Below are positions 37,456-41,569 of a stretch of DNA of 64,000 nucleotides, one piece after another (the first letter of the stretch is position 1; every line of letters starts with the position of its first letter). The position numbers were made by a program, and so were the translations under genes. The DNA is from Candidatus Zixiibacteriota bacterium (lineage in GTDB: Bacteria; Zixibacteria; MSB-5A5; GN15; JAAZOE01), in NCBI GenBank assembly GCA_023138975.1, contig JAGLON010000004.1, positions 1-64,000 on the forward strand, written 5' to 3'. Under the pieces are notes generated by a model. It was not told where the DNA came from. It saw only the letters and a list, made by a program, of their open reading frames with translations, and searched no databases.

Positions 37456-38904
37456 TTAGTCCTGATAGTTAACATCAAGAGTTTTAGTAGCTTTTACTTC
37501 ATCGAGTCGTCTGACCGGCGTAGTATATGGCGCGCCTTTAACCATTTCGGCATCAGAACTAATCTCTTCGTCTATTTTTAACATCGTATCCACAAAATAG
37601 TCGAGCATATCTTTGGATTCGGTTTCCGTTGGTTCAATCATAATCGCCTCGGGAATGATCAGCGGAAAATATATTGTCGGCGCGTGAATACCATAATCTA
37701 ATAGCCGCTTAGCGATATCAGACGTCCTTGCGCCTTTCTTCTTTTGAAGATTACCCGAAAGAACAAATTCATGCTGGCAGATTCTATCGTTCGGTAATTC
37801 GTATGTTCCTTTCAGGCGCTCCTTGAGATAATTGGCATTCAAAACCGCGTTTTCAGACACTCGCTTCAAACCTACCGCGCCTAAATGACGGATATAGGTA
37901 TAGGCCCGAACCATTATGCCAAAATTACCATAGAAACTGTGCATCCGGCCGATACTATCGGGACGATCATAATCCAGATAATATTCATCTCCCCGCTTCT
38001 CAACAACCGGAGTCGGTAAAAAGGGAATCAATTCATCGGTAATACCAAGAGCTCCGGCTCCGGGACCGCCGCCGCCGTGAGGAGTTGACATCGTCTTATG
38101 TAAATTATAATGGACGATATCAAAACCCATGTCAGCCGGACGAGCCTGCCCTAACAGCGCGTTTAGATTGGCGCCGTCCATATACAGAAGACCTCCGGCA
38201 TCGTGAACAATTTTTGCTATTTCCTCAATCTCAGATTCGAACAATCCCAACGTATTGGGATTAGTAATCATAATTCCAGCCGTATCCTCATCCATAACTT
38301 CGCGGATATGATCGGCAGAGATCATGCTATTCTCCGTAGATTTAAACTGAGCAACCTGATATCCGGAAAGAATCACCGAGGCTGGGTTGGTACCATGAGC
38401 AGAATCGGGAATCAGAATTTTCTTACGAACGTTGCCTCGTTTTTTCATTGCCGCTCGAATTAATAAAAGTCCCATTAATTCGCATTGCGCCCCTGCCACC
38501 GGCTGCACCGTCGCCCTATTAAATCCGGTGATGCGAGCCAGCAAGTCAGCCAGCTCATACATCAATTCAAGCGCCCCTTGACAGTTTTCACTACCGGTAA
38601 GCGGATGAAGATTTGCAAAACCCGGCAACCCCGCAGCGGCATCGTTGACTTTCGGGTTGTATTTCATCGTACAGGAACCCAGTGGATAAAACCCTCTGTC
38701 AATATGATGATTTCTTAAAGAGAGTTCTATATAGTGGCGCACCAATTCCGGCTCAGATTGTTCCGGTAATAGCGGTTCTTCTTTTCGCCGAAATTGTTCT
38801 GGTATCAGATTATCTACTGCGCTGTCCCCTATTTTAGTAACAGGCAGCGAGAAACCGGTTCGTCCCGGTCGAGATTTTTCATATACAACTTTGAAGTCAG
38901 ACAT
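37456..38904 (-). CDS. gcvPB: Glycine dehydrogenase (decarboxylating) subunit 2 (P protein, C-terminal half)
   Basis: 482 residues of a PLP-dependent fold type I enzyme. The cofactor Lys is in DIVHYNLHKTMSTPHGGGGP. Upstream are YPLGSCTMKYNP and AGAQCELMGLL, and the C-terminal part has APTIYFPLIIPEAIMIEPTE. With GcvPA it decarboxylates glycine and passes the aminomethyl group to lipoyl-GcvH. The split P-protein form is usual in many anaerobes and thermophiles. It is the last gene of the operon, 4 bases after the thioredoxin-like gene. Confidence 0.97.
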   Translation of the reverse strand: MSDFKVVYEKSRPGRTGFSLPVTKIGDSAVDNLIPEQFRRKEEPLLPEQSEPELVRHYIELSLRNHHIDRGFYPLGSCTMKYNPKVNDAAAGLPGFANLHPLTGSENCQGALELMYELADLLARITGFNRATVQPVAGAQCELMGLLLIRAAMKKRGNVRKKILIPDSAHGTNPASVILSGYQVAQFKSTENSMISADHIREVMDEDTAGIMITNPNTLGLFESEIEEIAKIVHDAGGLLYMDGANLNALLGQARPADMGFDIVHYNLHKTMSTPHGGGGPGAGALGITDELIPFLPTPVVEKRGDEYYLDYDRPDSIGRMHSFYGNFGIMVRAYTYIRHLGAVGLKRVSENAVLNANYLKERLKGTYELPNDRICQHEFVLSGNLQKKKGARTSDIAKRLLDYGIHAPTIYFPLIIPEAIMIEPTETESKDMLDYFVDTMLKIDEEISSDAEMVKGAPYTTPVRRLDEVKATKTLDVNYQD

Positions 38905-38908
38905 TGCT

Positions 38909-39865
38909 TCAGTTATTTTCCTCTTCTTGGGGAGGATTCTCTATTTTATCGATCTGCCCAGTCACCCATTCCACTTCGGAAGATTCGGGGAACTTGGTAA
39001 GAAAATCCTTATAATACTTTATCGCTTCATCTTTGTTTCCGGCCAAATCATTGCAGTATGCCACATAAATAACCGCTTCAGATATCAAGTCCGATTCGGG
39101 ATGTATTTTTTGAAACTCTTTAAATGCGGCTATCGACTCCTCAAACTTATCCGCCCGTCGCAAGGCATACGCCTTGGCAAATAAAGCATCATCAAAAAGA
39201 TCTGATTCAGGATATGTTTTCCTGAAAGTATCGAAGACTTCCATTGCAGAGGTAATCTGTTTGGCTCGTATTTTCATCTGCCCCATATTATACAGGGCGC
39301 TATCGGAATACCCCTTCTTATTGCTCGGATCGTTTTGCAGGATTTTCCTATAATAGCTTTCGGCCTTGGTAAACATTTTCCGGCCGGTATACTTATCTGC
39401 GATTTTGGCATAGAGCGGCATAGTTATGGCTGTATCTGCCTGACGGAGGAAATCAGCCAGAGTATTTCGATCGGCCAGATAATCATTGATTATCTCAATA
39501 AACTCTTCCGGAGGCGCATAACCATAAACCCGGTCTATTTCGGTGCCGTCGGCATTCGTCAGAATCACGGTGGGATATCCGGCGATCCCATACTTTTGCG
39601 CTAATAGCGTGTCGGCTTTGCCGTCAACTTTTACATTGATCATTTTACTCACAAGCTCTATCACTTCTTCGTTTCGATACGTCACGGTATCGAGGACTGT
39701 GCACCACGGTCACGTGGGTGACTTAAACGTTATTAGAATTTTCTTATTGCTGTCGCCCGCCTTTTTAAGCGCATTGTCGTACGTATCCTCAAACGAGATT
39801 TTTCCGGCTGTCACAATTCCAGCCAATAGGAATACGGCAATAACAGTAATCAGTGTTCTCTTCAT
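38909..39865 (-). CDS. Predicted exported selenoprotein: thioredoxin-fold (UxxC) plus TPR domain, with in-frame TGA
   Basis: Read through one TGA (39710-39712), the frame from ATG 39865 gives 318 residues. There is a signal peptide (about 1-20), a thioredoxin-like domain and TPR-type repeats (about 140-300). The TGA is codon 52, in SPT-U-PWC-TVLD, with Cys55 at the second position. It aligns with the first Cys of CxxC in thioredoxin relatives of the form WCGWCKxxDxxTFxDxEVI; downstream the same spacing reads LDTVTYRNEEVI. YPTVIL, the cis-Pro motif, follows. A perfect hairpin stands 16 bases after the TGA. GAGAGG precedes the ATG and overlaps the upstream stop. The downstream part alone (GTG 39685) would lack a signal peptide and active site. 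A nonsense mutation or read error is the alternative. Confidence 0.78.
39674..39693 (-). promoter_or_regulatory. Candidate bacterial SECIS element
   Basis: On the minus strand, TCGATAC-CGTGAC-GTATCGA forms a perfect 7-bp stem with a six-base loop. It begins 16 bases after the TGA at 39710-39712, and the loop's G at its second position is 25 bases downstream. Bacterial SECIS hairpins have a short stem, a small apical loop with G in the first two positions and a spacing of roughly 16-37 bases (established knowledge). A competing hairpin with the TGA in its loop (39704-39717) also exists. Confidence 0.7.
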
Positions 39866-39874
39866 CGAAACCTC

Positions 39875-40204
39875 TCAATCTTCTGGGGCAAAATCCTGAG
39901 AATTATCCTTGTTTTTCGAACCGATAAATACTTTAACCGCCTCACGGGCTTCCTCTTCATACTCTGCGGGAACTTTTATCTTAAACGTTTCTGACTTTCC
40001 CGAATACATGTAGGTCAGCGGTAAACCGGCTGTTCCCAAAACTCCCGGACTGGCGTCAAGCACCACTGGAATCTCATAAGATTTCAAGCCATTTACAGCA
40101 AACTCAGCTTCCATTCGCTGAGTGCATTCGGCAATGACAACCCAGACAGACTTCTGATTGACGTCCTCATTGCCGTTACGATATTCATTGTTATTTTCAG
40201 CCAT
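39875..40204 (-). CDS. DUF2007-like small protein
   Basis: A 109-residue soluble protein. After a polar N-terminus it reads VWVVIAECTQRMEAEFAVNGLKS. Then come IPVVLDASPG and FKIKVPAEYEEEAREAVKVFIG, the pattern of DUF2007/putative signal-transducing domains (a short ferredoxin-like fold of PII-like shape). No enzymatic role is known. It sits between gcvPA (24 bases upstream) and the selenoprotein gene (9 bases downstream), within the gcv operon. Confidence 0.72.
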   Translation of the reverse strand: MAENNNEYRNGNEDVNQKSVWVVIAECTQRMEAEFAVNGLKSYEIPVVLDASPGVLGTAGLPLTYMYSGKSETFKIKVPAEYEEEAREAVKVFIGSKNKDNSQDFAPED

Positions 40205-40228: not shown

Positions 40229-41569
40229 TTATCTGGTTTTTTGTGCCGAAAGGAAAGCAACAAATTTGTCGCAATCGGTGAAAGTATTGACCTCGGTAAC
40301 AGCTATCAACAATCGATTTTCATAGCCGGGATAATAACGCCCCAAATCTATTCCGGCGGCGACACCCACTTCCGCAGCGCCCTGTATTACCTCATTGGCC
40401 GGCACCGGAGTTTCTACGACAAACTCTTTGAAGAAGGGTGAGTTGTTCCAGACAGAGTATCCTTTTATATCATTAATCTTATCTGCCAAATAATGCGCTC
40501 GTTCTGTCGAAAGCCGGGCAATCCGCGGAATGCCCTGCCGCCCCATCATCGACATAAAGATCGTCGCAGCGGTAGCGCAGAGTGCTTCATTCGTACATAT
40601 ATTAGAGGTAGCTTTATCACGGCGAATATGCTGTTCACGAGTCTGCAGGGTCAGAACAAATCCCGGTTTGCCATCCACATCGGTCGTTCGCGCCGCGAGA
40701 CGCCCTGGAATCTTCCGGATAAACTTCTTCTTACAGGCAAACAACCCCAGTAAAGGGCCGCCAAAATTCTGAGAAAGACCAAGCCCCTGACCCTCGCCGA
40801 CAAAAATATCGGCATTGTATTCCGCCGGAGTTTTCAATATCCCCAGTGAAATCGGATCGGCAACGGTAATAAACAGACCGCCCGCATCATGTATCGCCTT
40901 CTCACCACGCTCTAAGTCCTCAAGGTAGCCAAAGTAATTCGGCTGCCCTAAAATCAAACAAGCGCAGGAATCGTCTATCATTTTTTCAAGTTCATTAAAA
41001 TCAGTCTGGCCGTTTTTTGACGGTAAAATAATAATTTCAAGATCAAGACCCGAGATAGTGGAACGCATGACTTCCCGATAATGAGGATTGACTGTATCGG
41101 AAATAACTATTTTGTTTCGTTTTGTGTAACCTGATGCCAGGATTGCCGCCTCAGTCATTGACGTTGCCCCATCATACATAGAGGCATTGGCAACATCCAT
41201 TCCGGTCAAACGGCAAATATGCGTTTGGAACTCATAAATAACCTGCAGTGTCCCCTGAGCCACTTCCGCCTGATAAGGCGTATAGGCTGTCGCAAATTCA
41301 GGTCTCATTACTATCGATGAGATAACCGGCGGGACATAATGATTGTAAATCCCACCACCTGTAAATGATATTTTGGACAACCGGTTTTTTGCGGCCATCT
41401 CTTCGAGATGGCGCATCAATTCCGGTTCGGACAGAGCTGGAGGCACATCCAGCAATTCTTTCAGGCGCAGGTTTTCCGGAATTATTTTGAATAAGTCCGA
41501 AATGCTGGAAACGCCAACGCTGTCCAACATCTTTTTTTGATCTTCTTCACTATTTGGTATATATGGCAT
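40229..41569 (-). CDS. gcvPA: Glycine dehydrogenase (decarboxylating) subunit 1 (P protein, N-terminal half)
   Basis: 446 residues matching the N-terminal half of the P protein. Typical segments are FTGGGIYNHYVPPVIS, the opening YTPYQAEVAQGTLQVIYEFQ, MDVANASMYDGATSMTEA, FVGEGQGLGLSQNFGGPLLG and REQHIRRDKATSNICTNEAL. It forms the heterotetramer with GcvPB and has no PLP-binding Lys itself. It follows gcvH after 3 bases. gcvT and the dihydrolipoamide dehydrogenase are not in the window. Confidence 0.97.
   Translation of the reverse strand: MPYIPNSEEDQKKMLDSVGVSSISDLFKIIPENLRLKELLDVPPALSEPELMRHLEEMAAKNRLSKISFTGGGIYNHYVPPVISSIVMRPEFATAYTPYQAEVAQGTLQVIYEFQTHICRLTGMDVANASMYDGATSMTEAAILASGYTKRNKIVISDTVNPHYREVMRSTISGLDLEIIILPSKNGQTDFNELEKMIDDSCACLILGQPNYFGYLEDLERGEKAIHDAGGLFITVADPISLGILKTPAEYNADIFVGEGQGLGLSQNFGGPLLGLFACKKKFIRKIPGRLAARTTDVDGKPGFVLTLQTREQHIRRDKATSNICTNEALCATAATIFMSMMGRQGIPRIARLSTERAHYLADKINDIKGYSVWNNSPFFKEFVVETPVPANEVIQGAAEVGVAAGIDLGRYYPGYENRLLIAVTEVNTFTDCDKFVAFLSAQKTR

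Follow-up and report, generated by a model that had tools for sequence, protein, structure and literature searches.

Translation of positions 38909-39865 of the window (the whole stretch of 64,000 nucleotides analysed, from a Candidatus Zixiibacteriota bacterium) gives a 318-codon frame on the minus strand, read from 39865 to 38909, with codons 1-318 spanning 39865 to 38912, a terminal TGA and a single internal TGA at codon 52 (Table 1). This establishes the frame as it had been described in the original prediction, with one in-frame TGA and no other stop. The residues around codon 52 read ...KILITFKSPT-U-PWC-TVLDTVTY..., where the TGA is the first codon of a thioredoxin UxxC motif. The gene lies between the genes for the two subunits of glycine dehydrogenase, and at most homologous loci across the phylum the order is accC-gcvH-gcvPA-(DUF2007-like)-this gene-gcvPB. 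The gene keeps its place between gcvPA and gcvPB throughout the phylum, and the neighbours gcvPA, gcvPB and gcvH confirm the placement in a glycine-cleavage cluster. The 109-aa neighbour had been called a DUF2007 gene; the gene and its place are found again in most relatives, while the label itself is weak (PF09413, E = 0.024, under the curated cut-off). Since the spacing is tight, the gcv genes and the Trx-TPR gene are likely co-transcribed.

Table 1. Features of the locus in window coordinates.
Feature	Position	Strand	Basis
Whole gene, 318 codons plus stop	38909..39865	-	Start ATG 39865; stop TGA 38911-38909
Predicted signal peptide, residues 1-21, MKRTLITVIAVFLLAGIVTAG	39803..39865	-	Sequence; cleavage site inferred
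In-frame TGA, codon 52, predicted Sec	39712-39710	-	Frame and homologue codons
Thioredoxin-fold domain (Thioredoxin_2), about residues 22-130	39476..39802	-	Pfam, alignment, AlphaFold2
UxxC motif U52-P-W-C55, N-terminus of helix 53-60	39701..39712	-	Alignment and AlphaFold2
Predicted bacterial SECIS hairpin	39674..39693	-	7-bp stem UCGAUAC/GUAUCGA
Helical repeat domain, residues 136-309: four TPR helix pairs and flanking helices	38939..39460	-	Pfam, AlphaFold2
gcvPA, glycine dehydrogenase subunit 1	40229..41569	-	Conserved neighbour
gcvPB, glycine dehydrogenase subunit 2	37456..38904	-	Conserved neighbour
109-aa upstream gene, DUF2007-like	39875..40204	-	Sub-threshold Pfam; place kept in most relatives

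When the window was scanned for frames joined across a TGA (at least 30 open codons joined to at least 100), codon 52 was the sole join on the minus strand, and the plus strand gave five others. TGA terminates 10 of the 43 open frames of at least 200 aa in the window, which shows that it is an ordinary stop elsewhere in this DNA, as had been claimed. The orthologues in six same-family genomes are 45-56% identical to this gene product and in-frame over the full gene length. Comparison of same-family pairs gave pN/pS ratios under 1 in every case, before the TGA as well as after it, and both halves of the gene therefore look translated and selected as protein.

The gene was present in nearly all of 80 relatives by six-frame search, and a profile search gave a match in 132 of 133 genomes of the phylum, some of the matches being shorter thioredoxin paralogues. 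At the site of codon 52, the 124 same-phylum homologues carry TGA (68), a Cys codon (54) or Ser (2). The same-order set, which includes one shorter paralogue, has 39 TGA, 21 TGC and 13 TGT among 73 homologues and no other codon, and a second set of 51 further homologues, almost all of them from other families of the same class and phylum, has 29 TGA, 16 TGC, 4 TGT and 2 Ser. The expectation that homologues should show C or TGA at this position is borne out, in favour of selenocysteine. In the same family (f1), TGA is found in five of the other six genomes and TGT in one (G006). Sec and Cys have been exchanged at least 14 times in the maximum-likelihood tree of 71 same-order sequences, and the starred branches of this tree by themselves force 8 Sec/Cys changes. 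The two Ser codons (AGC and TCT) belong to homologues of family f16 (L226 and L244), one of which (L244) has lost the second Cys as well. Some members of the class also carry a second paralogue group, located outside gcv (L249-L253 and L255), whose motif is UGxC and whose SECIS-like stem differs (loop GGC, 17 nt).

An Rfam scan of 36-44 kb of the window gave no match, and the SECIS element was therefore tested with the published structural model of bacterial SECIS elements, which has a stem of 4-16 bp, a loop of 3-9 nt with G in the first two positions, a distance from the UGA of 16-37 nt and an MFE of at most -7.5 (PMC13188914). The putative hairpin of this gene has a stem of 7 bp and a loop (CGUGAC, 39686-39681) with G in the first two positions that begins 23 nt past the UGA; its constrained energy is -8.0 kcal/mol with flanks and -7.0 for the stem-loop alone. 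Of the 39 TGA genes in the order, 36 have the same hairpin, at the same loop distance of 23 nt and with the loop CGUGAC or GGUC, and in these 251 of 252 stem pairs (99.6%) are formed. Two stem pairs show compensatory changes. Pair 6 reads C-G in 16 of these 36 genes and G-C in the other 20, and for pair 3 there are 7 genes with U-A and 28 with C-G. In 33 Cys homologues 65.8% of the stem pairs form, and judging from this pairing the hairpin has decayed in them. The hairpin region also encodes conserved residues, and for this reason synonymous recodings of the same peptide were used as the control. The median P was 0.024 for the TGA genes and 0.456 for the Cys genes, with 0.017 for this gene, these per-gene values not being independent because the homologues are kin. 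Several Cys genes (in G006, G050, G071 and G047) retain the hairpin, as is expected for recent Sec-to-Cys changes.

In three TGA genes of family f2 (L032, L062 and L068) the hairpin loop lacks the canonical G, which may mark an atypical type of SECIS. Other families have stems of their own; among the 29 TGA genes of the second set 17 had a stem of -5 or better, as did 2 of its 22 non-TGA genes, and 12 of the TGA genes had no stable stem of the model type. The 55-nt segment past the TGA of this gene is not unusually stable compared with dinucleotide shuffles (z = -0.66), and the predicted SECIS signal is comparative, not single-sequence thermodynamic. Since the site is TGA or a Cys codon in homologues and a conserved, covarying SECIS hairpin follows it, we assign a probability of about 0.93 to the reading that the gene encodes a selenoprotein, in support of the original prediction.

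The N-terminus of the chain is hydrophobic and signal-like, and many relatives in the order have instead a Cys resembling a lipobox. Pfam assigns residues 38-125 to Thioredoxin_2 (PF13098, 3e-13) and also detects TPR (TPR_6 at 9e-18). In a 48-row alignment position 52 is always U or C, and C55 and P98 are invariant, the latter being the candidate for the cis-Pro of the thioredoxin-fold domain. The AlphaFold2 model obtained from this alignment (pLDDT 94.1) has a Trx fold with U52 placed just before helix 53-60, followed by the four TPR helix pairs, and the TPR domain is kept throughout the family. The proposed thioredoxin-fold/TPR chain with U-Pro-Trp-Cys is therefore found again by Pfam, alignment and model, and with a C/UxxC motif at the helix start and a conserved Pro the predicted protein has the features of a Trx-fold oxidoreductase.

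From these features a mechanism can be proposed. With the ribosome at the UGA of codon 52, SelB carrying Sec-tRNA(Sec) would bind the hairpin, the loop of which lies 23 nt downstream, and selenocysteine would be inserted at codon 52 in place of termination. The N-terminal signal may then direct export of the 318-aa chain. In the exported protein, the pair Sec52-Pro-Trp-Cys55 could act as a thiol/disulfide (selenenyl-sulfide) reductant, the reductase direction being presumed, while the four-TPR domain probably docks a client protein or a partner complex. The likely electron donor would be a full-length DsbD of 651 aa, encoded on the same contig (G000:C43, at about 127 kb) some 87 kb from the gene. 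We regard this role as a DsbD-fed reductase as tentative, with the odds somewhat against it.

The protein could also be a selenoprotein of mainly another function, namely a redox-gated holdase (a chaperedoxin, as an exported analogue of CnoX/YbbN) rather than a disulfide reductase. The best match by fold among solved structures is E. coli YbbN/CnoX (3qou, E 2.9e-7), which also has a Trx-like domain followed by TPR-like repeats, and the family-wide conservation of the TPR domain is in line with such a function. However, the two proteins share 16% identity, and the whole-chain TM-score is only 0.28 (rmsd 22.7), from which it follows that the predicted structure does not have the domain arrangement of CnoX/YbbN. 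Furthermore, E. coli CnoX is cytosolic, has no Sec and is without a UxxC/CxxC pair, whereas U/C52 and C55 are invariant here in all 48 rows. A function mainly as holdase is thus unlikely, and it would in any case leave the assignment as selenoprotein unchanged.

A lack of sel genes in the genome had been named as an observation that would speak against a selenoprotein, and this applies in part: selA, selB and tRNA-Sec were not found in this assembly, which is 93.6% complete, while selD is present (G000:C19:227318-228238, L163) and in the Sec form. The selD gene is itself a predicted selenoprotein gene, with TGA at CAG-U-ASK, the expected UxxK site. A candidate for selB at G000:C57 proved by sequence to be EF-Tu, and the near-matches to tRNA-Sec in this genome were tRNA-Leu, Ser and Tyr according to ARAGORN. 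Among relatives, 33 of 40 have a tRNA-Sec scoring over the family cut-off and 73 of 80 have selA. The absences could mean that the Sec machinery has recently been lost, so that translation now really ends at the TGA and what remains is either a relic or a gene for no more than a 258-aa TPR fragment that starts at an internal GTG. In the relative G002, though, the gene order is bshC-bshA-bshB1-selC-recG-murB-sprA-...-selA-selB, and the bshC-bshA-bshB1 genes of the present genome are the last on contig C47, whose sequence breaks off about 0.7 kb past bshB1. The final 0.7 kb of this contig (L173:5981-6677) is repeat-like sequence without tRNA-Sec. The neighbours of the sel block, an amidohydrolase, glnA, recG, murB, sprA and purN, have no orthologue in this genome either, and the murB family model, which has matches in 10 of 14 control genomes, has none here. 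Because murB, recG, sprA and purN, all from this block, are absent along with the sel genes and C47 ends at this point, the missing selA, selB and tRNA-Sec very likely reflect an assembly gap; for a walled bacterium to lose all these genes is far less likely. The intact SECIS stem, the clean frame, the pN/pS ratios under 1 in both halves of the gene and the retention of a Sec-containing SelD likewise argue against loss, which we consider very improbable. We infer the Sec machinery of this very strain, and here the case for the strain is at its weakest.

Still less probable is a point error in the assembly, with TGC or TGT as the real codon. TGA is indeed one base away from the Cys codons, but the same TGA recurs in 68 homologues, including those of five other genomes of the family, and the SECIS hairpin is kept in this gene. 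A lineage-wide reassignment of TGA to an amino acid such as Trp or Gly, as might be read from the in-frame TGA of this gene in several genomes, can be dismissed, since TGA ends large frames of the window, this gene included, the alternative residue at the site is Cys and not Trp or Gly, and a SECIS-type hairpin lies downstream of the codon.

For the selenoprotein reading, then, the conserved location raises the question of why an exported thiol oxidoreductase stays between both glycine dehydrogenase genes. One may speculate that the protein represents a new selenoprotein family, spread across the phylum, that couples an exported Sec-thioredoxin to a TPR receptor domain; it would serve one specific exported client as its dedicated reductase or chaperedoxin, and a functional tie to glycine or one-carbon metabolism would be what keeps it in the glycine-cleavage operon. 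In this full form we regard the proposal as doubtful. The family should be a good natural system in which to study the timing and causes of the replacement of Sec by Cys, because it combines at least 14 switches within one order with a fixed location and with SECIS relics in some of the Cys forms. It also has a practical side, as standard gene calling would lose both the signal peptide and the active site.

Sec is well known in UxxC thioredoxin-like proteins, including a PF13098 family. The selenoprotein of that family, a "Thiol:disulfide interchange protein" (WP_011366075.1), shares with our protein a Thioredoxin_2-type domain with Sec first in the CxxC motif, but its catalogue entry lists neither a TPR domain nor a gcv location (PMC13188914 / PMC9312934). 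The Trx domain also matches the C-terminal (gamma) domain of DsbD, and DsbH, in both sequence and fold; these proteins, however, are without TPR, and DsbD is a membrane protein. The C-terminal Trx part of TsoB (NF045694), a rhodanese/DsbD fusion-like selenoprotein, matches residues 6-127 with 54.8 bits, and against a curated cut-off of 805 bits this rules out membership; both the architecture and the Sec motif (UxxxxU in TsoB) are different. No fitting NCBIfam model scored above its cut-off. Trx-TPR selenoproteins are missing from the 2026 catalogue, which covers 119 families of prokaryotic selenoproteins and leaves TPR unmentioned (PMC13188914), and none was found in a search of the published, openly accessible literature. 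This is in agreement with the original prediction, which knew of no described Sec family with this layout. The Trx-TPR family and its domain architecture, present in nearly every genome of the phylum, are thus new to the catalogue, and the most fitting description is that of a new family belonging to a known kind of selenoprotein.
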